Source of the DNA: Modestobacter lapidis
Lineage (GTDB): Bacteria > Actinomycetota > Actinomycetes > Mycobacteriales > Geodermatophilaceae
Assembly (NCBI GenBank): GCA_019779905.1
Contig: JABAKE010000002.1
Coordinates: forward strand, 124,001-188,000
Length of the DNA: 64,000 nucleotides
Reading direction: 5' to 3'
The position numbers and the translations under genes are program-made. Of this stretch, positions 3,548 to 61,242 are shown piece after piece. The notes below the pieces were generated by a model, which made no database searches, had not been told where the DNA came from, and was given only the letters and a program-made list of their open reading frames with translations. Positions within the stretch are counted from its first letter, which is position 1, and each line of letters starts with the position of its first letter.

Positions 3548-3895
3548 GTGATGGCTGAAGTTGCATGGCTGAGTGAGTACCGGGACGCTGCTGCCGCCAC
3601 GCCGGCCGGGTACGGCCAGGACGTGCTCGGCATGGCGGGCGTCTTCGACGCCGGCTTCGGTGGTCTGGCCACCGAGGAGCAGAGCTGGCACGAGCGCGCC
3701 CTGTGCGCCGAGACCGACCCCGAGGCGTTCTTCCCGGAGAAGGGCGGCTCGACCCGCGAGGCCAAGAAGATCTGCACCGGCTGCGAGGTCCGCGCCGAGT
3801 GCCTGGAGTTCGCGCTCGCCAACGACGAGCGCTTCGGCATCTGGGGCGGCCTGTCCGAGCGCGAGCGCCGTCGCCTGCGCCGTCAGGCCAGCTGA
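3548..3895 (+). CDS. whiB2: WhiB-family iron-sulfur regulator (WhiB2/WhmD type)
   Basis: About 115 residues. The four cluster-ligating cysteines are visible in RALCAETDP, the motif KKICTGCEVRAECLEFA (CxxCxxxxxC) and the spacing between them. The signature turn GIWGGLSERERRRLRR follows. The arrangement EAFFPEKGGSTREAKKIC closely matches WhiB of Streptomyces and WhmD/WhiB2 of mycobacteria, transcription factors required for septation or sporulation that bind a [4Fe-4S] cluster and partner with the principal sigma factor. The start is GTG 3548 or ATG 3551, both placed well after an AGGGGG ribosome binding site at 3535-3540; the longer frame from 3476 is unlikely. A structured repeat element begins exactly at the stop codon. 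Confidence 0.93.
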   Translation: MMAEVAWLSEYRDAAAATPAGYGQDVLGMAGVFDAGFGGLATEEQSWHERALCAETDPEAFFPEKGGSTREAKKICTGCEVRAECLEFALANDERFGIWGGLSERERRRLRRQAS

Positions 3896-3950
3896 AGGAC
3901 CCTGTCCCCCTCACCCCTCGCAGGCTCGGGGCGAGCCTCTGGACAGGGCC
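3895..3950 (+). repeat. nested-hairpin 3'-end element, copy A
   Basis: First of five related elements in the window (others at 37850, 43241, 45793, 60105). It begins AAGGACC at the whiB stop codon. Outer stem CCCTGTCC (3900-3907) pairs with GGACAGGG (3941-3948). Inner stem CCCC pairs with GGGG around the 10-nt loop TCGCAGGCTC. It probably acts as a terminator or RNA stability element. Confidence 0.75.
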
Positions 3951-35583: not shown

Positions 35584-36009
35584 TCAGGCCGGCCGGCTCT
35601 GCACCAGGATGGTCACGCTGACCTCGAACGTCGCGGGGGCGCTGAAGACCCGCGGGTCGTAGGTCCAGCTGTCCACGACGAAGTCCTGGTTCGGGTCGTA
35701 ACCCCACAGGTCGGCGTAGCCGTCACCGTTGTTGTCGGTGCCGTAGGAGTCCGGCCGGGCGTCCTCGTTCGTGTCGAACAGCCACATCAGTGCCCCGTTG
35801 GCGATGACCACGTTCCGGTCGAGGTAGCCGTTGCCCGACGTGTCGGTCGCCGACCCGTCGATCCAGCCGTCCCGGTTGACGTCGTACATGTAGAAGGACT
35901 GCGCCGCGCCGGCGGCCGGCATGCCGGCCAGCGAGACGCCGGCGGCGACGGCGACCGTGCCGGCGAGGGTGGCAGCGGTTCGGAGCGGGGAGCGAGCGGT
36001 GCGGGCCAT
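35584..36009 (-). CDS. secreted calcium-loop (EF-hand/TSP3-like) protein
   Basis: 141 residues, ATG 36009. Signal peptide with cleavage near GAAQS (residues 34-37). The mature part is built from five DxNxDG-type loops: DVNRDGWIDG, DTSGNGYLD, DTNEDARPD, DNNGDGYAD and DPNQDFVVD, typical of calcium-binding thrombospondin-type-3 or dockerin-like loops. It may be an extracellular structural or matrix protein. Its upstream region shares two conserved blocks with that of the protease gene. Confidence 0.82.
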   Translation of the reverse strand: MARTARSPLRTAATLAGTVAVAAGVSLAGMPAAGAAQSFYMYDVNRDGWIDGSATDTSGNGYLDRNVVIANGALMWLFDTNEDARPDSYGTDNNGDGYADLWGYDPNQDFVVDSWTYDPRVFSAPATFEVSVTILVQSRPA

Positions 36010-36047
36010 GCCGGTGTCCCTTCGGGGAGGGGAACGGGGTGTTCCCC

Positions 36048-36114
36048 GATGGGACGAGCGTGGGGCGCGCCGGCCGGGTTCCCCAGGACCCCTGGGGTGC
36101 CGATCGACCCACCC
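36048..36114 (-). promoter_or_regulatory. shared upstream element, copy 2
   Basis: Counterpart of the element at 34791-34857: 32-bp core at 36083-36114 (three differences) and the GGGACGAGCGT block at 36051-36061. The core is 74 bp from the calcium-loop protein start, almost the same distance as in copy 1. Confidence 0.7.
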
Positions 36115-36185
36115 TGTGGCCCCCTCCAGGGCGGCCGCCTGCGGCCTCCGGCACCTGGCAGCGGTCGGCGCGCGAGGCGCGACAG

Positions 36186-37811
<1,626 letters not shown>

Positions 37812-37849
37812 GTCGGCTCCTTGGATCGGCCTCGGGGAGGTACGGGGTC

Positions 37850-37907
37850 GGCCACCCTTCAGGGTCCCGCGCCGAGCGTGCGAGGCGTGGGGGGAAGGGT
37901 GGTCCTT
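37850..37907 (-). repeat. nested-hairpin 3'-end element, copy B
   Basis: Minus-strand orientation, starting 2 bp after the proline dehydrogenase stop. Outer stem CCACCCTTC pairs with GAAGGGTGG (9 bp); inner stem CGCC/GGCG around loop TCGCACGCTC. It lies inside the putB-pruA gap, so it may lower pruA expression or process the transcript. Confidence 0.8.
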
Positions 37908-37909
37908 TC

Positions 37910-38842
37910 TCAGGACTTGGTGGCGAGCGAACGGAGGAAGAACTGCAGGTTGGCGGGGCGCTCGGCCAGCCGGCGCATGAAGTAGCCGTACCAGTCGGCG
38001 CCGTAGGGGACGTAGGCCCGCACGGTGTGCCCGGCGGCGGCCAGCCGGGCCTGCTCGTCGGGCCGGATGCCGTAGAGCAGCTGGAACTCGTAGCTGTCGG
38101 AGGCCCGGCCGGTCCCGGCGACCAGGGCGAGCAGCCGCTCGATCAACGCAGGATCGTGGGTGCCGGCCATCGGGTACCCGGGGCCGCGGACCAGGATCTC
38201 GAGGCAGCGGGCGTAGGCCGCGTCGACCTCGGCCTTGTCCTGGTGGGCGACGGTGGCCGGCTCGCGGTAGGCGCCCTTGACCAGCCGTACCCGCGAGCCC
38301 GGGGCGGCCAGCGCGCGCGCGTCGTCCTCGGTGCGGTGCAGCATCGCCTGCAGCACCGCACCGGTGCCGGGGTGGTCGCGGCGCAGCTCGGCCAGGACGG
38401 CGAGGGTCGAGTCGACCGTCCGGTGACCCTCCATGTCCAGGGTCACCGTGGTGCCGTGCGCGGTGGCCGCCTCGGCCACCGCGCGCACCAGCTCCAGCGC
38501 CACGTCGTGCCCGCCCACCGGCAGCGCCTGCCCGAAGGCCGACAGCTTGACCGACACCTCCGCCGCCCGGCCGAGGCCGAGCGGGGCGAGGCCGTCGAGC
38601 GCGGCGAGGTAGGCGTCCCGGGAACGGAGCGCCGCGCTGCGGTCGGTCACGTCCTCGCCGAGATGGTCGAGGGTGACGGCGATGCCGTCGGCGGCCAGCG
38701 TCCGGACGGCGGCCAGCGCGTCGGGCAGCGCGTCGCCGGCGACGAACCGGTCGACGACCCGGCGGGTCACCGGCGTCCCGGTGACGACGCGGCGCAGCGC
38801 CGGCCGGCGGGCCGCGGCGAGCAGGGCCTTCTGGGTCAGCAC
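37910..38842 (-). CDS. putB: proline dehydrogenase
   Basis: 310 residues from GTG 38842 with GGAGG 6 bp upstream. FAD-dependent beta/alpha barrel with VSVKLSAFG, VTLDMEG, RVRLVKGAYRE, and the C-terminal YFMRRLAERPANLQFFLRSL that binds proline and FAD. It oxidises proline to P5C at the membrane. Monofunctional, unlike the PutA fusion of enteric bacteria. Divergent from a PucR-type regulator with a 129-bp gap. Confidence 0.95.
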   Translation of the reverse strand: MLTQKALLAAARRPALRRVVTGTPVTRRVVDRFVAGDALPDALAAVRTLAADGIAVTLDHLGEDVTDRSAALRSRDAYLAALDGLAPLGLGRAAEVSVKLSAFGQALPVGGHDVALELVRAVAEAATAHGTTVTLDMEGHRTVDSTLAVLAELRRDHPGTGAVLQAMLHRTEDDARALAAPGSRVRLVKGAYREPATVAHQDKAEVDAAYARCLEILVRGPGYPMAGTHDPALIERLLALVAGTGRASDSYEFQLLYGIRPDEQARLAAAGHTVRAYVPYGADWYGYFMRRLAERPANLQFFLRSLATKS

Positions 38843-38971
38843 GGGCCACCTCCGGTCGAGCGCCGGGCACCCGACGCTGGACCCGACGCTAGGGACGGCG
38901 CGGCCGCCCCACCACGGACAGCTGTCGGAACTCTGCTCATACGATCGTCTGAGACAGCCGGGGAGGCAACC

Positions 38972-40147
38972 GTGCGCGACGACCTGCAGGACCTGGTGGA
39001 CGAGGTGTCCCGGCTGCTCGGCGCACCGGCGACGCTGGAGGACCGCGACTTCACCCTGCTGGCGTTCTGCGCACACCCGGCCAGCGGGGACGACGCCGCG
39101 CCGGGCACCGCGCTCGACGCCGTCCGCACCCGGTCGATCCTGACCCGCGGCTCACCGGTGGCGACCCGGCGCTGGTTCGAGGAGTTCGGCATCGCCACGG
39201 CGACCGGGCCGCTGCGCATCCCCGCCGATCCGGACGCCGGAATCCTCACCCGGTTGTGCCTGCCGGTGCGGTCGGCCGGGCTGCTGCACGGCTGGCTGTG
39301 GCTGCTCGACGAGGGGCGCACCGACCTCGGCGACCCGGCGGCGCCCGCACTGGTCGCCGCCCTGGAGCTGGCTGCGGCGGCCGGCCGGCTGCTCGCCGGC
39401 GACGGCGCCCCGGGGACGGCGGACCTGTCGGCGGCACTGCGGTCGGTGCTGCTCGGTATCGCCCCGCTACGGGCGACGCAGACCCTGGCCGCCGCTCTCG
39501 GCGACCGCACCCCGGTCGCCCTGGTCGCCCTGCACCCGGCGGCCGGCGGGCTGCCCCCCGGCTGGGTACCGCCCGCCGCCGGCGCCGTCCCGGTGGTGCT
39601 GGACGGCGGGGAGGTCGCCGTCCTGCTGCCGCTGCCGCGGGCCGCTGACCCCCGCCCGGCCGGCGCGCTGACCGCCGCCGCCCTGGCCGGCCTCCCGCCC
39701 GGCAGCACCGCCGGCGTGTCGGCCGCGCGCACCGGCTGCGGCGAGCTGCCGGCACAGTGGCACGAGGCGCGCACCGCCGCCCGCGTCGCGGCGGTGGCTC
39801 CCGGGCTGGCCCCGGTCGCGTCCTGGACCGAGCTGGGTGCCTGGCGCTCGGTCGCCGAGCTGTCCGGGCCCGACCCGGCGCTGGCCCGGCTGCTGGCCGA
39901 TCCGGTGCTCACCGAGACCGCCGGGGTGTGGCTGGACTGCGCCGGCAGCCCGCAGCGCGCGGCGTCCCGGCTGCGCATCCACCGGCAGACGCTGTACTAC
40001 CGGCTCGGCCGGATCGCCGACCTCACCGGGCTGGACCTCGCCGACGGCGCCGACCGGCTGCTGCTGCACCTCGGCGTGCGGGCGGCCCGGCTGCTCCGGG
40101 CGCGGACACCGGTCGGCACCGGTCGTGACCTAGGCTCAGCAGGCTGA
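38972..40147 (+). CDS. PucR/CdaR-type transcriptional regulator (PutR-like)
   Basis: 391 residues from GTG 38972 after GGGAGG (38961-38966). The C-terminal helix-turn-helix RAASRLRIHRQTLYYRLGRI with DLTGLDL is the PucR/HTH_30 signature. The N-terminal ~300 residues are the sensory part with no obvious cofactor site. Its position opposite the proline dehydrogenase matches actinobacterial PutR activators of proline catabolism. Its stop overlaps the heme oxygenase start (TGATG), forming an operon with the photoreceptor genes. Confidence 0.88.
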   Translation: MRDDLQDLVDEVSRLLGAPATLEDRDFTLLAFCAHPASGDDAAPGTALDAVRTRSILTRGSPVATRRWFEEFGIATATGPLRIPADPDAGILTRLCLPVRSAGLLHGWLWLLDEGRTDLGDPAAPALVAALELAAAAGRLLAGDGAPGTADLSAALRSVLLGIAPLRATQTLAAALGDRTPVALVALHPAAGGLPPGWVPPAAGAVPVVLDGGEVAVLLPLPRAADPRPAGALTAAALAGLPPGSTAGVSAARTGCGELPAQWHEARTAARVAAVAPGLAPVASWTELGAWRSVAELSGPDPALARLLADPVLTETAGVWLDCAGSPQRAASRLRIHRQTLYYRLGRIADLTGLDLADGADRLLLHLGVRAARLLRARTPVGTGRDLGSAG

Positions 40148-40872
40148 TGACTTCGGGAAGACAGGCGCTGCCGGGCGGCGGGCACGGCGCCGCGGGGGAC
40201 GGGGACCGGGTGGCCGACGACGCGGACGTGCTGCGCCGGCTGCGCGCCGACACCGCGCCGGAGCACGAGGCGGTCGAGCAGGCGCTGAACCTCCTCGACG
40301 CCGGCCTGACCCCCGCCCGGCTGACCGTGGTGCTGGCCCGGATGCACGCCTTCTGGCTCGCCGCGGAAGCGGGGCTGGACGCGTGGGCCGCCGCGTCGCC
40401 GGCCGCCGCGGCCGCCCTGCAGTGGACCGACCGCCGCCGGACCCACCTGTTCGCCGCCGACCTCGCCGCGCTGGGCGCCGCGCCGGCCGGGCCCGGCGAC
40501 GCACCCGACCTGCCCGCGGTCCCCGACACCGACGCCGCGCTCGGCCGGCTGTACGTGCTGGAGGGATCGACGTTGGGCGGGGTGTTCATCGACCGGCACC
40601 TGGCCACGCTTCCCCAGCTGGCCGGCACCGGCACCCTGCGCGCCTTCTCCCCCTACGGCGGGCGCGCCGGCGCCATGTGGCACGCCTACCGCGCGGCCAC
40701 CCGCGCGCACGTCGCCACCGGCGGGGACGCCGACCGGCTGGTCGCCGCCGCGCAGCAGACGTTCACCGCGCTCGCCGCCTGGTGCGGCGCGCCCGTGCTG
40801 GAGCACACCGGCACCGCAGCACCGGGGCCGCGCGGTCGCGCGGCCCGACGGAACGAGGCCCCCGTCCCATGA
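40147..40872 (+). CDS. bphO: biliverdin-producing heme oxygenase (BphO)
   Basis: 241 residues, ATG 40147. Proximal heme ligand His40 lies in DTAPEHEAVEQALNLLD and the distal helix is YVLEGSTLGGVFI, as in bacterial BphO. It opens heme to biliverdin IX-alpha, the chromophore of the phytochrome encoded next; the two genes overlap by ATGA. About 20 N-terminal residues are Gly-rich and may be non-native; GTG 40210 is an alternative start. The C-terminus is slightly longer than typical. Confidence 0.9.
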   Translation: MTSGRQALPGGGHGAAGDGDRVADDADVLRRLRADTAPEHEAVEQALNLLDAGLTPARLTVVLARMHAFWLAAEAGLDAWAAASPAAAAALQWTDRRRTHLFAADLAALGAAPAGPGDAPDLPAVPDTDAALGRLYVLEGSTLGGVFIDRHLATLPQLAGTGTLRAFSPYGGRAGAMWHAYRAATRAHVATGGDADRLVAAAQQTFTALAAWCGAPVLEHTGTAAPGPRGRAARRNEAPVP

Positions 40873-43238
40873 CCGACCAACTCGGGTCGGGGAACTGGCT
40901 GGCGCCGGGCACCCCCGTCGACCTCGGCAACTGCGAGCGCGAGCCCATCCACGTGCCGGGCAGCATCCAGCCGCGCGGCGTCCTGCTGGCGGTGAGCGAA
41001 CCGGACATGGTGGTCCGGCAGGTGTCGCGCAACCTCGCCGCCGTCGTCGGGACGGCGTGGGACGACGCGCTGGGCCGGTCGCTGGCCGACGTGCTCGGCG
41101 CCGTCCCGGCCCAGGCGATCGCCCGCTCGGCCCGGGCGTTCGGCGACCTGCGCGAGCGCAACCCGGTGGAGCTGGTGCTCGACCTGGCCGGCACGCCCGT
41201 CCCGGTCGACGCGATCCTGCACCGCGCCGTCCACTCCTTCGATCAGCCCGCGCGCCCGGCCGGTGACGGCGCCCCGGCCGCGCGGACGGCGAGCACGCTG
41301 GTCGTGGAGCTGGAACCGGCCTACGGCCCCCGGCCGTTCAGCTTCCCGAACACCTACCAGGCGGTACGCGGAACGATCAGCGAGCTCAACCGGGCCGCGG
41401 GCCTGCAGGAGCTCTACGACATCACCGCCACGGCGGTCCGCACCCTCACCGGCTTCGACCGCGTGATGGTCTACCGCTACGACGCCGACTACAACGGCGA
41501 GGTCGTCGCCGAGGCCAAGCTGCCGGAGCTGAACTCCTTCCTCGGCCTGCACTACCCCGCCTCCGACATCCCGGCCCAGGCCCGGGCGCTGTACGAGAAG
41601 AACTGGATCCGGCTGATCTCCGACGTCGGCTACACCCCGGCACCGCTGGAGCCGGTCGAGCTGCCCGTCACCGGCCGGCCGCTGGACCTCACCTACTCCA
41701 CGCTGCGCAGCGTCTCCCCGATCCACTGCGAGTACCTGCAGAACATGGGCGTGCGGGCGTCGATGTCGATCTCGCTGCTGCACGGCGAACGGCTGTGGGG
41801 GCTCATCGCCTGCCACCACTACTCCGGGCCGCACGCCCCGCCGTACGCCACCCGCGCGGCTGCGGAGTTCCTCGGCTCGACGCTGTCGCTGCGGCTGGTC
41901 GACCGGGCGCAGGAGGAGGAGCACCGGCGGGCACTGCGGGTGCGCTCCACGCTGGCCTGGCTGACCGCCGCCACGCTGGACGAGGACCGCCCGCTGGCCG
42001 AGACGCTGCTGGGCCGGCCCGGAATGCTCGACGTCGTTCCGGCCGACTCGGTGCACGTGGGCCTGCAGGGACGCACCGGCACGGCCGGCGTGCCGCTGCC
42101 GCCGGCGGTGGTCAGCTCGCTCGCGGCCTGGGCGGCGCACCAGGGCGAGGACGTCGTCGTCACCGACCAGCTGCCATTGGTGGCGCCGGAGCTCGACGTT
42201 CCCGCCGGGATGGCGTGCGGGGTGCTGGCGCTGCCGCTGCCCGACGGTCAGTACGTGCTCTGGACCCGCGGCGAGCAGGTGCACTCCGTCGACTGGGGCG
42301 GCGACCCGCACAACAAGGCGATCGCCGAGCGCGAGGGCGACGCGGTGCGGCTGTCGCCGCGCACGTCCTTCGACCGGTGGCGGGAGACGGTCCGCGACCG
42401 CTCCGACCCGTGGACGGCGGCCGAGCTGGCCGAGGCGGGCGAGCTGCGCACCCACCTGCTGGAGGCGCTCTACGCCCGGTCCCGGCGGGTGGCGCGGGCC
42501 GCGCTCACCCTGCAGCGCAGCCTGCTGTCCGAGCCGCCGGACCCCGACTCGCTGGAGTTCGCGGTGCGCTACGTCCCGGCGGCGCGGGAGGCCCAGGTCG
42601 GCGGCGACTGGTACGACGTGTTCGAGCAGCCCGATGGCGCGACCGCGCTGGTCATCGGCGACGTGGTGGGGCACGACACCGAGGCGGCCGCCTGCATGGG
42701 GCAGCTGCGCGGGCTGCTGCGCGGGATCAGCTTCGACAGCGCCGACAGCCCGGCCGGGGTGCTGACCCGGCTGGACCGGGCGATGGACGGTCTGCACCTG
42801 CAGACCCTGGCCTCGGTGCTGGTCGCCCGCCTGGAGCAGACCCCCGCGGAGGTGGCCGCCGGCACCACCCGGCTGCGCTGGTCCAACGCCGGTCACCTGC
42901 CTCCGGTGGTGCTGCTGCCCGACGGCTCGACCGAGGTGCTCACCCGCACCCCGGCCGAGCTGCTCACCGGGGTGCACACCGACGCGGAACGTCGCGATCA
43001 CGTGGTCACCCTGCCCCGCGGCGCGACCGTGCTGCTCTACACCGACGGCCTGGTCGAGCGCCGTGACCGGCTCTTCGACACCGGCATCGCCCGGCTGCGC
43101 GAGGAGCTCACCGCGCTGCGCGACCGGCCGGTGGCCGAGCTGGCCGACGAGCTGCTCGCGCGGCTGCTGCCCGAGCGGGCCGAGGACGACGTCGCGCTGA
43201 TCGTGGTGCGGCTGCACCGCCAGGACCGCCCCGCCTGA
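40869..43238 (+). CDS. bphP: bacteriophytochrome with C-terminal PP2C (SpoIIE) phosphatase
   Basis: 789 residues, ATG 40869. PAS domain: Cys22 in NCEREPIHVPGSIQPRG is the biliverdin attachment site. GAF domain: PASDIPAQAR around Asp233, and His286 in SPIHCEYL. PHY domain: tongue motif PRTSF at 497-501. The output is not a histidine kinase but a PP2C/SpoIIE domain (about residues 560-780) with GGDWYD at 578, GDVVGHDTEAA, YTDGLVER and DDVALIVV, all metal-binding motifs intact. It is a red/far-red photoreceptor that likely dephosphorylates an anti-sigma antagonist. Confidence 0.96.
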   Translation: MTDQLGSGNWLAPGTPVDLGNCEREPIHVPGSIQPRGVLLAVSEPDMVVRQVSRNLAAVVGTAWDDALGRSLADVLGAVPAQAIARSARAFGDLRERNPVELVLDLAGTPVPVDAILHRAVHSFDQPARPAGDGAPAARTASTLVVELEPAYGPRPFSFPNTYQAVRGTISELNRAAGLQELYDITATAVRTLTGFDRVMVYRYDADYNGEVVAEAKLPELNSFLGLHYPASDIPAQARALYEKNWIRLISDVGYTPAPLEPVELPVTGRPLDLTYSTLRSVSPIHCEYLQNMGVRASMSISLLHGERLWGLIACHHYSGPHAPPYATRAAAEFLGSTLSLRLVDRAQEEEHRRALRVRSTLAWLTAATLDEDRPLAETLLGRPGMLDVVPADSVHVGLQGRTGTAGVPLPPAVVSSLAAWAAHQGEDVVVTDQLPLVAPELDVPAGMACGVLALPLPDGQYVLWTRGEQVHSVDWGGDPHNKAIAEREGDAVRLSPRTSFDRWRETVRDRSDPWTAAELAEAGELRTHLLEALYARSRRVARAALTLQRSLLSEPPDPDSLEFAVRYVPAAREAQVGGDWYDVFEQPDGATALVIGDVVGHDTEAAACMGQLRGLLRGISFDSADSPAGVLTRLDRAMDGLHLQTLASVLVARLEQTPAEVAAGTTRLRWSNAGHLPPVVLLPDGSTEVLTRTPAELLTGVHTDAERRDHVVTLPRGATVLLYTDGLVERRDRLFDTGIARLREELTALRDRPVAELADELLARLLPERAEDDVALIVVRLHRQDRPA

Positions 43239-43240
43239 AG

Positions 43241-43298
43241 AAGGACCCCCTTGCCCCCCACCACTCGCAAGCTCGTGGCGGGACCCTGCAAGGGGGCC
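43241..43298 (+). repeat. nested-hairpin 3'-end element, copy C
   Basis: Starts AAGGACC 2 bp after the bphP stop. Outer stem CCCCCTTGC (43246-43254) pairs perfectly with GCAAGGGGG (43288-43296); inner stem CCAC/GTGG encloses loop TCGCAAGCTC (43265-43274). Confidence 0.8.
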
Positions 43299-43301
43299 TG
43301 A

Positions 43302-43574
43302 TCAGCGGTCGGTGAATTCCGGGGTCAACTCGTCACCCGGGTCCCCACCGGGGATGCCCGCCGTCGGGAGGGGTGCGTCATCGTCAGCGGCCGCGGCGGC
43401 CGCCGGGGAGTCCTCCACGGCAGCCTGTGCGGGGCCGGCGGCCGGCGTAGCCAGCTCCTCGAGGACCTGCTTCTCGTCGGGGTCCAGCGGTCCGCCGTCC
43501 CGGTGCTCGCCGGGTTCGCCCTCGTCGTTGCCGGTGGCCATCGCGGTGTCGGGGGTGGTGTCGTCTGGGGTCAC
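43302..43574 (-). CDS. small acidic Ala-rich protein
   Basis: 90 residues from GTG 43574 (ATG further in also possible). Strongly acidic, low-complexity (NDEGEPGEHRDGGPLDPDEK, AAAAADDDAP), no membrane segment, likely disordered. Function unknown; convergent with bphP. Confidence 0.45.
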   Translation of the reverse strand: MTPDDTTPDTAMATGNDEGEPGEHRDGGPLDPDEKQVLEELATPAAGPAQAAVEDSPAAAAAADDDAPLPTAGIPGGDPGDELTPEFTDR

Positions 43575-43616
43575 CGCCCTGCACTACCTGCCCGGGCGCC
43601 CCGCCAACCGTCGGGA

Positions 43617-44666
43617 TCAGGCGGCGTCGGCCCTGGCCAGGGTGCGCAGCAGCTCCCGTGCCGCGCGGGGGCCGGCCCGGTTGGCGCCGATGGTGCTCGC
43701 CGACGGGCCGTAGCCGACCAGGTGCAGCCGCGGCTCGCCGACCACCCGGGTGCCGTCCATGACGATGCCGCCGCCCGCGGCCCGGAGGTGCAGTGGGGCG
43801 AGGTGGTCCAGGGCCGGGCGGAAGCCGGTGGCCCAGAGGACGACGTCGGCGCGCAGGGTGCGGCCCGGGTCGCCGTCCCACGCCACGCCGTCCGGCGTCA
43901 GCCGGTCGAACACCGGCAACCGGTCCAGCACACCCCGCGCCCGGGCGGCCAGCACGGCGTCGGTCTCCATCAGACCGGTGACGCCGACGACGCTCCCCGG
44001 CGGCAGCCCGGCCCGCACCCGCTGGTCGACCAGCGCGACCGCGGCCCGGCCGGCGTCGGCGTCGAAGGCGCTGCTGCGCCAGACCGGCTCGCGGCGGGTG
44101 ACCCAGGTGGTCGTCGTGACCTCGCTGATCTCGATGAGCTGCTGCACCGCGGAGGTGCCGCCGCCCACCACGACCACGTGCCGGCCGCGGAACTCCTCGG
44201 CTCCGCGGTAGTCCGCGGCGTGCAGCTGGCGTCCGCGGAACTGCTCGCGGCCGGGATAGGCGGGCCAGAACGGCCGGGTCCAGGTGCCGGTGGCGTTCAC
44301 CAGCCCGGACGCCGTCCACTCCCCCGCGCTGGTGTCCAGCGTGAAGCCGTCGTCGGTGCGGTGCACGGCGCGCACCGCCACCGGCCGGCGCACCGGCAGC
44401 TGGAAGCGGCGCTCGTAGTCGGCGAAGTACCCGGCGACCACCTCGCTGGCCGGGCTGGCCGGGTCCGCGGCGGGCAGCTCCATGCCGGGCAGCGCGGCGA
44501 TGCGGTGCGCCCGGTCCAGCCGGAGCGAGGGCCAGCGGTGCTGCCACGCCCCACCGGGACCGTCGTCGCCGTCCAGCACCACGAAGTCGGCCCCGGCCCG
44601 GGCCAGCGCGTGCGCCGCGGACAGGCCGGCCTGGCCGCCACCGATCACCACGACGTCGTTGTGCAC
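43617..44666 (-). CDS. FAD-dependent flavoprotein oxidoreductase/monooxygenase
   Basis: 349 residues from GTG 44666; longer frames are unsupported. N-terminal FAD-binding motif DVVVIGGGQAGLSAAHALAR and a second Rossmann motif VVVVGGGTSAVQQL for NADPH, with ATGTWTRP and LWATGFRP (ATG motifs) between and after. Resembles YhiN/TrkA-like and arsenite-associated flavin monooxygenases, but no arsenic genes are nearby. Soluble; substrate unknown. Confidence 0.85.
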   Translation of the reverse strand: MHNDVVVIGGGQAGLSAAHALARAGADFVVLDGDDGPGGAWQHRWPSLRLDRAHRIAALPGMELPAADPASPASEVVAGYFADYERRFQLPVRRPVAVRAVHRTDDGFTLDTSAGEWTASGLVNATGTWTRPFWPAYPGREQFRGRQLHAADYRGAEEFRGRHVVVVGGGTSAVQQLIEISEVTTTTWVTRREPVWRSSAFDADAGRAAVALVDQRVRAGLPPGSVVGVTGLMETDAVLAARARGVLDRLPVFDRLTPDGVAWDGDPGRTLRADVVLWATGFRPALDHLAPLHLRAAGGGIVMDGTRVVGEPRLHLVGYGPSASTIGANRAGPRAARELLRTLARADAA

Positions 44667-44834
44667 GTCGGCTGCAACACCGCCCGCCCCGCCGTTCTGC
44701 CCGACCCACCCGCACCGGGGCCGATCAGGGGCGGACGGCGACCAGGACGGCGCCTGCGTCCCCCGATGTGTCGGCGCCCGGTCAGCGGGCACATACGGAG
44801 AGTCGGAGCAGACGACACACACGGGGCGGACCGC

Positions 44835-45791
44835 ATGACGCAGGACGAGGGAAGACCCGCCGGGTACCGGCACGTGGGACACGTGCGCACGGCGGACGAG
44901 GATGTGGTGGCGGTGGTCGCCTCGTTCCTGGACCGGGTCTCGGCGGCCGGTGACCGGGTGGTCATCGCCTGCCCCGAACCGGTGGCCGGCCTGCTGGCCC
45001 GGGCGTTCGACGGGGTGTACGTGCTCGAGCCCGAGCCGGTGGACGCGCGGCCGGCGACCGTGGTGGCCGAGCTGGTCCGGCTGGTCGACGGGGCGTTGCC
45101 CGACGACGGCTCCCGGCTGCAGTTGGTGACCGCGGTGCAGCAGCCGGCGAACGGCTGGGCCGGATGGATGCAGACCGAGGCGCTGCTCAACCACGTGCTG
45201 GCCGACCGGCCGGTCGACCAGCTCTGCCTGCTCGGGCCCGGCGCGGACGACGCCCATCCGCCCGGCCCCGCCGACGTGACGGTCGCGACGCACCCCTGGC
45301 TCATGGTCGACGGCGAGCCGGCCAGGAACCCGGGCTACCGGGAGCCGGCCGAGGTGGTCGCCGAGCTGCAGCACTCCCGGGTGCCCGATCCGATCGAGTC
45401 GACGGAGCCGGCGCTGGCGCTGCTCGACCTGGACGACCTGCGGTCGCTGCGCCGGTCAATCGCCCGGGTGCTGGCCGACAGCGCGCTGAGCGACGATGCG
45501 GCCCAGGACTTCGTGCTGGCCATCGACGAGATCGTCGCCAACGCCGCCGAGCACGGCGTCCCGCCGGTCGACGTCCGGCTGTGGTGCGGCCGCGACCGGC
45601 TGCTGTGCTCCATCACCGACCACGGCACCTGCTTCGACGACCCGTTGGCCGGCTACGGGCCGGCGCACGGCGACATGGCCGTGGGGGGCATGGGGTTGTG
45701 GCTGGCCCGGCGGTCCGTGGACGACCTGGTCGCCTCCCCGACCCGGGAGTCCGGCGAGGGCTGCACCGTCCGGCTGGTCGTCCGCGCCTAA
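44835..45791 (+). CDS. MEDS domain plus HATPase_c anti-sigma-like kinase
   Basis: 318 residues, ATG 44835. N-terminal ~160 residues (YRHVGHVRTADEDVVAVVASF, DRVVIACPEP) fit a MEDS sensory domain; the C-terminus (ALSDDAAQDFVLAIDEIVAN, DHGTCFDDP, GGMGLWLARRSVDDL) is a Bergerat-fold ATPase with the N box (EIVANAAEHG) and G box, as in RsbW-type anti-sigma kinases. It may be a partner-switching counterpart for the nearby PP2C proteins. Its stop overlaps the idi stop. Confidence 0.8.
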   Translation: MTQDEGRPAGYRHVGHVRTADEDVVAVVASFLDRVSAAGDRVVIACPEPVAGLLARAFDGVYVLEPEPVDARPATVVAELVRLVDGALPDDGSRLQLVTAVQQPANGWAGWMQTEALLNHVLADRPVDQLCLLGPGADDAHPPGPADVTVATHPWLMVDGEPARNPGYREPAEVVAELQHSRVPDPIESTEPALALLDLDDLRSLRRSIARVLADSALSDDAAQDFVLAIDEIVANAAEHGVPPVDVRLWCGRDRLLCSITDHGTCFDDPLAGYGPAHGDMAVGGMGLWLARRSVDDLVASPTRESGEGCTVRLVVRA

Positions 45792-46405
45792 CGGCCTCGC
45801 TGCAGGGGCCCGCGCCGAGCTTGCGAGGCGTGGGGGGCAGCGAGGTCCTTGATCAGCCCGGCCTCCTCGATCAGCCGGGCCTGCTCCCGGCACCAGGGTG
45901 ACCACGCGTCCCTCTCGGTCTCCTGCCGCCGGCGGAACGCCGCCCAGTCCAGCAGCTCCCACTCGGCCACCTCGGTCGGGTCGGGCGCCGGGGAGCCGGT
46001 GAACCGGCCCAGGTAGACCGGGCAGATCTCGTTCTCCACGACGCCGCGGAACTCGGCCCGGTACCGGTAGCCGGGCAGCGCCGGCGTCAGGGCGCGCACC
46101 CCGAGACCGATCTCCTGGCCGGCGCGGCGCGTGATCGCGGCCGCGTCGTCCTCCCCGGGCCCCGGGTGACCGCACACGGTGTTGGTCCACATGCCGGGAA
46201 AGGTGGCCTTGTCCACGGCCCGCCGGGTGACCAGCAGCCGGGCGTCGTCGTCGAAGAGGTAGGCGGAGAAGGCACGGTGCAGCGGCGTCTCCCCGGTGTG
46301 CACCAGCCGTTTGGGCATCGTGCCGATCGCGGCCCCGGACTCGTCGACCAGCACGATGATCTCGTCCGCCCGCGGTGCCACCACGTCCTGTGTCGTCTCG
46401 TCCAT
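45788..46405 (-). CDS. idi: isopentenyl-diphosphate delta-isomerase, type I
   Basis: 205 residues from ATG 46405 (ATG 46414 in frame). Nudix fold with catalytic Cys in WTNTVCGHPGPGED and Glu in ENEICPVY. It interconverts IPP and DMAPP for isoprenoid and carotenoid synthesis. The C-terminus beyond EEAGL (about 20 residues, KDLAAPHASQARRGPLQRGR) is encoded by the repeat element and is unlikely to be native. Its TAG lies across the convergent gene's TAA. Confidence 0.93.
   Translation of the reverse strand: MDETTQDVVAPRADEIIVLVDESGAAIGTMPKRLVHTGETPLHRAFSAYLFDDDARLLVTRRAVDKATFPGMWTNTVCGHPGPGEDDAAAITRRAGQEIGLGVRALTPALPGYRYRAEFRGVVENEICPVYLGRFTGSPAPDPTEVAEWELLDWAAFRRRQETERDAWSPWCREQARLIEEAGLIKDLAAPHASQARRGPLQRGR
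45793..45850 (-). repeat. nested-hairpin element, copy D, fused into idi 3' end
   Basis: On the minus strand it reads AAGGACC; outer stem CCTCGCTGC/GCAGCGAGG (9 bp) and inner CGCC/GGCG around TCGCAAGCTC. Unlike other copies it is within the open frame of idi and supplies about 20 codons of its C-terminus. Confidence 0.75.
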
Positions 46406-58211: not shown

Positions 58212-59510
58212 GTGCAACGGTCGGGACGGCGCCGCTCCGCGATCGGTCTACCCCCCGGCCGGGTGGCCGTGCCCGGGCTGCTGCTGGCCGGTGTGCTGCT
58301 GGTCGCGTTGAACCTGCGCGGTCCGCTGGTGGCGGTCGCGCCGGTGGTCGACGCCATCGGCCGGGACCTCGCCCTCAGCGCCGGCACCGTGGGCCTGCTG
58401 ACCAGCATCCCGGTGCTCTGCTTCGGTCTGGCCGCACCGTTCGCCTCGCTGCTCATCGCCCGGACCGGGGTGCACCGGGCCGTCCTGGTCTCCCTCGGCG
58501 GCGTGCTGCTGGGCAGCCTGCTGCGCTCGACGGGCAGCCCGGCCACGGCCATCGCCGGCACCGTCGTCCTCGGGCTGGGCATCACGGTGGGCAACGTGGT
58601 CGTCCCGGTGGTCATCGGCCGCGACTTCCCCACCGCGACCAACGTGGTGATGGCGGCCTACACCGCCGCGCTCAACCTGGGCTCGGCGTTCACCACCTCG
58701 CTCACCGCCCCGCTCGCCGAGGTGGCCGGCTGGCAGGTGGCGCTGGCCTCGTGGGGGCTGCTGACCGTGGTGGCCGCCGGGGTCTGGACGGCGGCGCTGC
58801 GCCGGCAGGTGGCGCGGGCCGCGGCCCGCGCCACCGACCACCCGCCTGCCGTCCCGCCGGTCCCGGAACCGGCACCGACCCGCCCGCTGTGGCGCAATCC
58901 GGTGGCCTGGGGGCTCATGCTCGCCTTCGCCGGGCAGGCGTTCAGCTACTACGGCCTCACCGCGTGGCTGCCCAGCCTGCTCGCCGACGAGCAGGGGCTC
59001 TCCCGCGCCGCGGCCGGGGTCAGCTCGTCGCTGTTCCAGCTGCTGGCCATCGTGGGGGCCTTCGCCGTCCCGGCGCTGGTGGCCTGGTGGGGCCGGCCCG
59101 CGCTGGTGCTGCTGGCGATCACCGCAGCCTGGGCCACGCTGCCGCTTGGCCTGCTGGTCGCGCCGTCGTTGTGGGCGCTGTGGTGCTGCTTGGCCGGCGC
59201 GGCACAGGGCGGTGGCATCACGGTCATCTTCATCGCGGTGGTCCGCCGGTCCCGGGGGCTCACGGAGAACCGGCGGATGTCGGCCATGGTGCAGGGCGGC
59301 GGGTACACCGTGGCCGCGACCGGTCCGCTGGTCATCGGCGCGGTGCACGACGCCTCGGGCGGTTGGACCCTTCCACTGCTGGTCATCCTGGGGGCGGTGG
59401 CAGTGATGGCCGTCGCCGGCGCCCCGGCTGCCGGCGGCCGGCCCGACGTGGTCGCCGATGACGCTGCGGAGTCCGCCCGGGCCCCGTCGGAGAGGGGATC
59501 GCGTGGGTGA
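58212..59510 (+). CDS. MFS transporter (CynX/NimT family)
   Basis: 432 residues, GTG 58212. ALNLRGPLVAVAPV in helix 1, LIARTGVHR motif A, LGLGITVGNVVVPVVI, and QGGGYTVAATGPLVIG in the last third, typical of the CynX/NimT branch that includes cyanate and nitroimidazole transporters. Twelve helices. Overlaps the next gene by 8 bp. Confidence 0.87.
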   Translation: MQRSGRRRSAIGLPPGRVAVPGLLLAGVLLVALNLRGPLVAVAPVVDAIGRDLALSAGTVGLLTSIPVLCFGLAAPFASLLIARTGVHRAVLVSLGGVLLGSLLRSTGSPATAIAGTVVLGLGITVGNVVVPVVIGRDFPTATNVVMAAYTAALNLGSAFTTSLTAPLAEVAGWQVALASWGLLTVVAAGVWTAALRRQVARAAARATDHPPAVPPVPEPAPTRPLWRNPVAWGLMLAFAGQAFSYYGLTAWLPSLLADEQGLSRAAAGVSSSLFQLLAIVGAFAVPALVAWWGRPALVLLAITAAWATLPLGLLVAPSLWALWCCLAGAAQGGGITVIFIAVVRRSRGLTENRRMSAMVQGGGYTVAATGPLVIGAVHDASGGWTLPLLVILGAVAVMAVAGAPAAGGRPDVVADDAAESARAPSERGSRG

Positions 59511-60102
59511 ACTGGTGGTCGTCCGGCACGGGCAGACCGAGTGGAGCCGGAGCGGCCAGCACACCGGCCTGACCGACCTGCCGTTGCTGCCGGCGGGTGA
59601 GGACGACGCCCGGCGGCTGCGGCCGGTGCTCGCCGAGCGGCCCATCACGCACGCCTTCGTCAGCCCGCTCGGTCGGGCCCGCCGGACCGCCGAGCTGGCC
59701 GGGCTGTTCGACGGCGGGCTGGAGACGGTCCTCGAGCCGGATCTCGTGGAGGTCGACTACGGCGGCTACGAGGGGCTGACCACGCCGGAGATCGGCGCGC
59801 AGCTCGGCGGCCGGTGGTCGCTGTGGGCCGACGGCACGGTGCCGGGCGAGACCCCCGGCGAGGCGCTGGACCAGGTGGCGGAACGGGTCGACCGGGTGCT
59901 GGCGCGGGTGCGGCCGCTGCTGGCCGACGGCGACGTCGTCCTGGTCGCCCACGGGCACCTGCTGCGCATCCTCACCGCCCGCTGGCTGGGCCTGGGGCCG
60001 GCAGCGGGCGCGCTGTTCCCGCTGGCGACCGGCCGGTACGGGCTGCTGGGCACCGAACACGACTGGCCCGCGCTGACCGGGTGGAACGTCGGCTGCCCCT
60101 GA
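59503..60102 (+). CDS. histidine phosphatase (phosphoglycerate mutase superfamily)
   Basis: 199 residues from GTG 59503, overlapping the MFS stop. RHGQTEWS holds the phospho-accepting His; SPLGRARRTAEL, EVDYGGYEG and VAHGHLLR supply the remaining pocket residues. Small phosphatase of the PhoE/GpmB type. An element copy starts right after its stop. Confidence 0.9.
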   Translation: MGELVVVRHGQTEWSRSGQHTGLTDLPLLPAGEDDARRLRPVLAERPITHAFVSPLGRARRTAELAGLFDGGLETVLEPDLVEVDYGGYEGLTTPEIGAQLGGRWSLWADGTVPGETPGEALDQVAERVDRVLARVRPLLADGDVVLVAHGHLLRILTARWLGLGPAAGALFPLATGRYGLLGTEHDWPALTGWNVGCP

Positions 60103-60104
60103 GA

Positions 60105-60160
60105 CAGGACCCCCTCGCCCTATCGCTCGCAAGCTCGCGACGGGCCCCTACACGGGGGCC
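60105..60160 (+). repeat. nested-hairpin 3'-end element, copy E
   Basis: Starts AGGACC 2-3 bp after the histidine phosphatase stop. Inner stem TCGC/GCGA around loop TCGCAAGCTC (60127-60136). The outer stem is weaker (CCCCC/GGGGG). Its right end overlaps the EAL gene stop. Confidence 0.75.
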
Positions 60161-61242
60161 TCGGCGTGCAGCAGCTCCGGCGCCACGGAGGGACTCGGGC
60201 GAACCGGGCGGCCGAAGAACCAGCCCTGCCCCAGGTCCGCGCCCAGCGCCCGCACCTCGTCGGCGACCCGCTCGGACTCCACCCCCTCGGCGACGACGGT
60301 GGCGCCCAGGCCGTGGGCCAGGCTGATCACCGAGGCGGCGACCGCCCGGGGGCCGGCGTCGGTCAGCCGGGAGACGAGCTCCTTGTCCAGCTTCACCACG
60401 TCGGGCCGGACGGCGGAGACCAGCGCGAGGCTCGACCAGCCCGCGCCGACGTCGTCCAGGGCGACCCGCCAGCCCAGCGACCGGTGGTGCTCCAGCACGG
60501 CCAGCAGGTGGCCGCGGTCGGGGATGGCGTGCGACTCGACCACCTCGAAGACCAGCTGTCCGGGCGAGAGTCCGCTGTCGTGCACGGCGGCCTCGGTGCC
60601 GGCCAGGCAGACCTGGGGGCGGTGGACGGCGGCCGGGTTGCTGTTGACGTAGAGGTCGGCGCTGCCGAGCCAGCCGGCGGCGCCGCGGACCGCCGCCTCC
60701 CGCGCGATCCGGTCCAGGCGGTCCAGCCACCCGGCGGACTCGGCGAGGAAGAACAGGTCGCCACCGCCGACCTCCCGGCCGTGGGCGCGGCCGCGCAGCA
60801 GGGCCTCGTGCGCGACGACGGCACCGTCGGTGAGCGAGACGATCGGCTGGTAGACCGGCCACAGCTCGGCCTCGGTGAGCACGCCGATCTCGACGGTCAC
60901 CCCGCGGCGGGCGAGCTCCACGGCCAGGGACGGCGCACCGAGCAGCCGCGCGGCCAGCGCGATCTCGTTCTCCGGCGGGTCGGCGGCCACCCGCACGGCC
61001 TCGGTCTCGGCCGCGGTCAGGTCGCGGGCCAGCCGGGTGAGCAGTCGGTCCACCCGCCGGCCGTCGCCGTCGTGCGCGACGACCTCCAGCAGCCCGGGAT
61101 CGGCGTAGACGTCCAGCCCGACCAGCGCGGCGGTGCGCGCGATGGCCGGCAGCACGTGTTCCAGGGGGCTGGCCAGCAACAGCCGGGTGGCGCGCTCGGG
61201 GGTCGCCCAGGCGGGGCGGACGACGTCGGCGGTTCCGCTCAC
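60148..61242 (-). CDS. EAL-domain c-di-GMP phosphodiesterase
   Basis: 364 residues, ATG or GTG at 61242. N-terminal ~115 residues lack a recognised domain. EAL domain: YQPIVSL, HEALLRG (EAL), NSNPAAV, ESHAIPD, DDVGAG (variant of DDFGTG), VKLDKEL and VAEGVES; all metal-binding acidic residues are present. It hydrolyses c-di-GMP to pGpG, which oligoribonuclease (18234) could finish. Divergent from a TetR gene. Confidence 0.9.
   Translation of the reverse strand: MSGTADVVRPAWATPERATRLLLASPLEHVLPAIARTAALVGLDVYADPGLLEVVAHDGDGRRVDRLLTRLARDLTAAETEAVRVAADPPENEIALAARLLGAPSLAVELARRGVTVEIGVLTEAELWPVYQPIVSLTDGAVVAHEALLRGRAHGREVGGGDLFFLAESAGWLDRLDRIAREAAVRGAAGWLGSADLYVNSNPAAVHRPQVCLAGTEAAVHDSGLSPGQLVFEVVESHAIPDRGHLLAVLEHHRSLGWRVALDDVGAGWSSLALVSAVRPDVVKLDKELVSRLTDAGPRAVAASVISLAHGLGATVVAEGVESERVADEVRALGADLGQGWFFGRPVRPSPSVAPELLHAEAPV

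Follow-up and report, generated by a model that had tools for sequence, protein, structure and literature searches.

A dispersed, REP-like hairpin repeat behind stop codons in Modestobacter lapidis and other Geodermatophilaceae

The genome of Modestobacter lapidis carries a family of dispersed hairpin repeats with a unit length of about 56 to 60 nt, five copies of which lie in the 64,000-nt stretch of DNA analyzed here (the window). The repeat is probably a REP-like, non-autonomous mobile hairpin that lacks the usual tag or transposase and inserts at stop codons. This reading draws on a unit that is duplicated without its flanks, on occupancy that differs at orthologous gene ends, on the spacing to the stop codon, on covariation of the arms and on the fold of the antisense strand. 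An earlier note on this DNA had left the choice between a family-specific terminator, a REP-like mobile hairpin and a protein-bound 3' RNA element, and the mobile hairpin accounts best for identical copies at unrelated loci and for uneven occupancy. Bacterial chromosomes commonly contain non-coding REP-like repeats. An abundant family that combines a sharp stop spacing, a strand signature and filled and empty sites in many species makes a mobilizer and its targeting rule directly testable. Stop-anchored repeats in a family of soil bacteria are also a good case for how genomes gain and tolerate repeats.

In the orientation chosen by the earlier note, the repeat begins with GAAGGACC, followed by an outer arm of 8 or 9 bases, CC, then CCC or CTC, A, four bases and the loop TCGCANGCTC; after the loop come four bases, C, then GGG or GAG, NCYCT, the second outer arm and finally GGCC, beyond which the next base is mostly G and no further consensus exists. 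All five elements that the note had listed were found in the sequence with their positions, ends, loop and inner stems. The outer stem was perfectly paired in four of them, as had been claimed, and the fifth (60103 to 60160) carries mismatches. That four copies adjoin a stop was also borne out, since those at 3893, 37850, 43239 and 60103 each follow a coding stop; 1 nt separates this stop from GGACC in the 3893 copy and 4 nt in each of the other three. Genes were predicted by a codon-usage script alone, and copies were scored with R1, a covariance model built from 13 copies. The copy at 3893 to 3950 (+; 66.7 bits), of the CTC/GAG subtype, overlaps the stop of a WhiB-family gene (3632 to 3895, +). 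The copy at 37850 to 37909 (-; 83.3 bits) lies right behind the stop of a proline dehydrogenase gene (37910 to 38842, -), with an aldehyde dehydrogenase gene (36186 to 37811, -) downstream, and that at 43239 to 43298 (+; 88.8 bits) right behind the stop of a PAS-GAF-PHY-SpoIIE gene (40869 to 43238, +); a convergent open reading frame (43302 to 43574, -) is called 3 nt beyond the latter copy. The degraded copy at 60103 to 60160 (+; 52.8 bits) stands right behind the stop of a histidine phosphatase gene (59503 to 60102, +), and a convergent open reading frame called at 60148 to 61242 (-) has its stop codon and 3' end within this copy. The remaining copy, at 45793 to 45852 (-; 86.1 bits), is located inside the 3' end of a NUDIX-domain gene (45788 to 46405, -), which we take to be isopentenyl-diphosphate-isomerase-like, at a site common to several relatives. 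This gene reads in frame across the repeat, which thus encodes its last residues, and the TGA at the usual position is out of frame; the relative L035 looks alike. Such coding use of the repeat looks incidental.

Exact matches to TCGCANGCTC occurred five times in the window, one in each element, and 291 times in the whole genome as opposed to 54 times for a reversed control pattern. With one mismatch allowed, the window gave 21 matches against 34 expected, and so it holds no excess of the degenerate loop as such. The earlier note had staked its claim of selected structure on the existence of further copies and on stems that covary in them beyond chance. A search of the 4.78-Mb genome with R1 indeed returned at least 154 matches, partial units included. 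Genome searches scored 93, 18 or 150 candidates per genome, so that all such counts are minima and the true copy number is probably above 154. We then have 59 genomes searched with R1 under the stricter filters used for sets of more than 40 genomes, in which weak matches are lost: the window's own, 22 of the same genus, 12 others of the family and 24 from other families of the order. The repeat was present in 32 of the 59, every one in the Geodermatophilaceae, and in none of the 24 genomes from other families; since filters were strict and candidates limited, these absences say little about divergent copies. Within the Geodermatophilaceae, 3 of 12 genera were without a detected repeat at these filters, which may miss weak copies, the genomes concerned being G027, G029 and G031, and in a fourth genus it is rare, with 5 matches in genome G025. 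Detection of the family in other genomes by R1 places its occurrence far above chance. When named genomes were scanned with a sequence pattern, at least 110 stretches with the repeat were obtained; among the 80 matches listed, 79 belonged to Geodermatophilus, Blastococcus, Modestobacter, Trujillonella, Goekera or "Geodermatophilaceae bacterium" and one to an unverified record labelled Bacillus. A class-wide sample of 296 genomes contained divergent relatives in two genomes besides the window's own, both of one genus of another order. In these relatives the inner hairpin is retained, as is the CCCT side of the internal loop, and the outer stems are different; 9 of 10 lie behind a gene on the same strand, as judged by a gene model trained on only 1655 codons. 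The term "family-specific" in the earlier note therefore holds for a repeat that is widespread in one family, but not for its divergent cousins in another order. Head-to-tail arrays with a period of 48 to 54 nt are found at L018:5628-5889, L168:8911-9121 and L176:17943-18378; their inner units align to the middle of the R1 model only.

Pairing is maintained while the arms change. Among 130 matches from other species, 95.5% of the stem cells pair, compared with 84.9% in shuffles, and 215 cells are changed on both sides, compared with 52, the cells not being independent events because copies descend from one another. Most loci in these tests came from a pattern search in which the inner stem and the A-C position are fixed, and this introduces a bias for the inner stem. 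When the partners were shifted by one to three columns, pairing dropped to 45 to 51%. On the antisense strand, 62 copies (the window contributed one, and the 130 matches just mentioned the other 61) gave 97 double-change cells as opposed to 23 in shuffles. Selection for, or at least maintenance of, structure, as proposed in the earlier note, is thus backed by covariation, and the stems do covary beyond chance in the further copies.

The strand that folds better is the one antisense to the upstream gene. The elements described in the earlier note are real; the strand on which they were described is the less well paired one. In that note's orientation, an A-C mismatch is nearly constant and the ten-base loop is unpaired. 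On the antisense strand, the mismatch becomes G-U in 59 of 60 distinct rows, most of them selected with the fetch pattern. The loop, GAGCNTGCGA, is presumably compatible there with tandem G-A pairs next to G(CNUG)C; the two G-C pairs of this reading hold in 59 and 60 of the 60 rows. The apical loop of the 43239 copy (43265 to 43274), for example, reads TCGCAAGCTC on the plus strand and GAGCTTGCGA on the minus strand by sequence and folding, and the latter may be taken as tandem G.A pairs and G(CUUG)C. In 174 copies, which remained after 13 had been removed from 187 distinct ones for having fewer than 6 of 9 outer pairs, we found 67 A-C and 9 G-T departures from Watson-Crick pairing in the note's orientation, with the constant mismatch and the outermost counted pair excluded. 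Since the fetch pattern fixes the A-C position, the test was repeated with 71 copies that do not match the pattern: these had 28 A-C and 7 G-T stem cells, and their mismatch position was A-C in 50 cases, Watson-Crick in 19 and G-T in 1. The RNA folding energy was lower on the antisense strand in 204 of 206 copies (mean, -38.4 versus -32.3 kcal/mol), and DNA folding parameters agreed for three window copies. A strand bias is not expected of a double-stranded cruciform; therefore, we infer that the relevant form is probably the antisense strand by itself, be it DNA or RNA.

The repeat is anchored to translation stops. For this analysis, 219 distinct copies were collected by a regular-expression scan of the window, L001 to L158 and L167 to L178 (duplicates removed, L159 to L166 left out), and a coding stop was defined as the end of an open frame of at least 40 codons with a codon score above threshold, provided that its end fell in the range from 45 nt ahead of GGACC to 40 nt past it. 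Such a stop was nearby in 157 of the 219 copies, in one of them after GGACC, and a TGA stop stood exactly 4 nt ahead of GGACC in 89; TAG stops favor a spacing of five (11 copies) or two (8 copies). No coding stop was detected nearby for the other 62 copies, some of which are inner units of tandem arrays, and this counts against the mobile reading. Simple targeting of TGA does not fit the data. A TGA at position -7 was present in 93 copies, and 89 of these use it as the coding stop, as opposed to a genome baseline (694 kb) of 531 TGA stops and 1614 intergenic non-stop TGAs (531 of 2145 being stops). C precedes the TGA in 78 of the 93 copies and in 322 of the 531 TGA stops at large. Where a convergent gap holds no element, TGAs that are stops and those that are not occur in nearly equal numbers (126 and 120), and hence the contrast is weaker there. 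A pull toward true stops rather than any TGA is hard to obtain from DNA targeting alone, which also speaks against mobility.

Gene context was determined for 81 near-full-length copies in 694 kb, namely those longer than 50 nt among 49 of 58 matches (E of 3.4e-5 or less) plus 38 of 60 further matches; mainly partial tandem units and one antisense match were left out. Sense-oriented copies numbered 36 between tandem genes and 22 between convergent genes; 8 copies were antisense between tandem genes, 5 lay between divergent genes, and 10 overlapped genes or lay at a stretch end. Gaps of at least 40 nt between called genes served as the baseline, and 233 of 397 were tandem, 67 convergent and 97 divergent. 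Co-orientation with replication was seen at 93 of 150 listed places (from 371 matches in three genomes; P of 0.004 against one half), with dnaA taken as the origin and the opposite point as the terminus; this value lacks a baseline for genes and may be no more than a consequence of how the genes are oriented. Copies that are not behind a called same-strand gene (L018:11127+, L019:9649-, L007:10604+ and L167:5577-) sometimes have a foot with TAGT or TAG, as in GATCCTAGT and GGATAGTC, and such copies are possibly a separate subtype.

Identical copies at unrelated loci and orthologous sites that differ in occupancy demonstrate that the repeat disperses. Among the 81 copies, four pairs from different loci match exactly along 56 nt; one of these pairs shares the upstream flank as well, and both of its members are in tandem arrays, which argues against the mobile reading. 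In 47 pairs that are at least 93% identical, mean flank identity was 0.35, compared with 0.31 to 0.32 for all pairs. At the proline dehydrogenase stop, the copy is present in the window, G012 and G020, and an apparent remnant, judged by eye, in G017 (16 relatives compared). A different palindrome, likewise judged by eye, occupies this site in 12 of the 16 relatives; palindromes of this kind in the gap between the proline dehydrogenase and aldehyde dehydrogenase genes were noted in L029 to L032, L035, L036 and L039 to L044, for example CCAAAATGGCCATTTTGG and GCCAAAAGCGTGCTTTTGGC. The NUDIX gene site has six clear copies and one weak copy among 18 relatives. At the phytochrome gene site, none of 16 relatives has a copy in the same orientation, and G020 has one on the opposite strand behind the stop of the convergent gene. 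Conversely, the end of the aldehyde dehydrogenase gene carries a copy in G016, G010 and G012 and none in the window. Two more gene ends have a copy in relatives and not in the window, with only one flank mapping to the window at the expected place. A target duplication was not clear among 177 copies: over 784 offset and length combinations, the strongest was observed 6 times against 1.4 expected, and this counts against mobility, as does the alternative that palindromes spread and are repaired through gene conversion or template switching. GCCTGA is found at both ends of the 43239 copy and is not a general feature, since the right flank has TGA in 6 of 90 copies with a left TGA. To our knowledge, HUH-type elements need no target-site duplication.

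We looked for a mobilizer of the usual kinds. No Y1_Tnp domain (PF01797, RAYT) was detected in 57 genomes of the family, and the control search had matches in 5 of 14 genomes. Integron integrase (TIGR02249) was above the cut-off in none of 9 genomes, with matches below the cut-off in all 9 and in all 14 controls; as no control genome exceeded the cut-off either, this search has no positive control. That no mobilizer was found by either search was counted against the mobile reading. A constant GTAG or CGTC tag is also missing. A GTAG head appeared plausible from separate position counts and failed as a tetramer, the foot being GTAG in 12 of 219 copies, GTGG in 5 and, most commonly, GAAG in 36. 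At the gathering score, Rfam matched two tRNAs in the window and none of the hairpin copies; over the 43239 copy, the top subthreshold match had 14 bits against a cut-off of 43, and nothing credible appeared up to an E value of 10.

The repeat shares features with several known systems. Integron attC sites are also about 60 nt long and located behind open reading frames, with one strand that folds better, a bulged base and variable arms; unlike attC sites as we know them, which form cassette arrays, the present repeats are dispersed, and no integrase was above the cut-off in the nine genomes. According to excerpts of two REP papers (PMC2817692 and PMC3733652), REPs of the GTAG and CGTC superfamilies likewise occur as more than 100 imperfect palindromes per genome, mostly 3' of genes, and GTAG REP ends often provide the stop codon. 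Excerpts of PMC2817692 describe REPs with a GT(A/G)G head together with their RAYTs; the repeat analyzed here has neither a constant GTAG head nor a Y1/RAYT protein that we could find. In this respect it resembles CGTC REPs, which, in the excerpts of PMC3733652, have no dedicated transposase and no known mobilizer. The REP of Coxiella burnetii even has the ten-base loop GAGCTTGCGA (PMC2817692, Table 1, as excerpted), identical to that of the antisense strand here, but with respect to the foot that abuts the stop, our repeat has this loop on the other strand. Moreover, at 56 to 60 nt the repeat exceeds the 20 to 40 nt of REPs as excerpted, and it is nested, has a 5+2 internal loop and a sharp stop spacing and is actinobacterial. 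MIRUs, too, are short, apparently mobile actinobacterial repeats at coding signals, but in the excerpts of PMC12548453 they are at start codons, with an open reading frame coupled to the neighbor gene by a 4-nt overlap, whereas our hairpins are behind stops, most often at a spacing of 4 nt. Excerpts of PMC1590033 report that stem-loops are concentrated 3' of genes and that some form repeat families, those of PMC2229807 contain nothing on stop-anchored hairpins, and among the papers listed by our literature search, limited in coverage, none described this family.

How, then, might such a repeat arise? Under the mobile reading, a candidate enzyme would recognize the folded single strand by its GA/CNNG loop, the AGGGN/GG internal loop and a bulged T near the foot, and would place new copies at or beside stop codons. 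Selection would remove most other copies, i.e., those in genes, promoters and 5' leaders, and the hairpin would influence mRNA 3' ends, if at all, as a by-product or through later co-option. A more specific version, in which a hairpin-mobilizing system that is neither RAYT nor integron folds the template strand and delivers sense-oriented copies specifically to translation stop codons, perhaps sensing more than TGA, and is active across the Geodermatophilaceae and a second actinobacterial order, is conceivable, and we regard it as doubtful. Sense orientation behind genes, tight spacing and stable hairpins would also be expected of a functional mRNA 3' element, either an untailed terminator or a 3'-end stabilizer that starts right behind the stop codon. 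The different palindrome seen by eye at the proline dehydrogenase site in most relatives fits such a role, and REPs adjoin the 3' ends of open reading frames (excerpts of PMC3733652). Like an intrinsic terminator, the repeat is a GC-rich hairpin just behind genes, but it has a conserved loop and internal loop, is dispersed and has no T-tract: none of 206 copies has five or more T in the next 10 nt, and a terminator pattern scan of both strands of 36001 to 46000, which holds three copies, found nothing. These two results lend no support to the canonical intrinsic terminator, and with it the first of the earlier note's readings in its canonical form. The wobble pairs on the opposite strand disfavor a protein-bound RNA element on the mRNA strand, and the copy between the co-directional, adjacent proline dehydrogenase and aldehyde dehydrogenase genes and the differing occupancy among species likewise speak against an mRNA 3' function, which we consider unlikely.

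If the antisense strand matters as RNA, the hairpin could be a terminator or processing signal for transcripts that enter the gene from its 3' side. The better fold of that strand agrees with this, and so does the conserved AA ahead of GGACC, which on the other strand is TT behind the antisense stem, GGTCC-TTC then being where a weak T-rich tail starts. We nevertheless hold this to be quite improbable: the 36 of 81 copies in sense orientation between tandem genes are at places where no antisense gene is expected, the repeat is anchored to the stop of the sense gene while distances to the downstream gene vary widely, and the scan had covered both strands. Finally, palindromes could be perfected by templated repair (quasi-palindrome correction or strand switching) and spread by gene conversion, with neither enzyme nor function. 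As we understand this mechanism, it would yield paired arms without selection, and the tandem arrays point in the same direction; yet the fixed loop and internal-loop letters, the wobble strand bias and the stop-codon spacing would be left unexplained, which makes it a very improbable account of the family.

A second dispersed repeat was noticed at L001:7163+, L015:14861+, L016:5026+, L059, L068, L090, L142, L171 and L176. Its 77-nt unit, which starts at an (A/G)TGA overlapping a stop upstream, codes for some 26 amino acids, [MV]SE[LP]A...TSxSEE. It resembles mycobacterial MIRUs, as excerpted in PMC12548453, and may be their counterpart in the Geodermatophilaceae. Four hairpins with a shared loop turned out to be members of this MIRU-like repeat and not of the hairpin family. 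Three tandem units of the 77-nt repeat, 77 nt apart, are present on the minus strand of L015.
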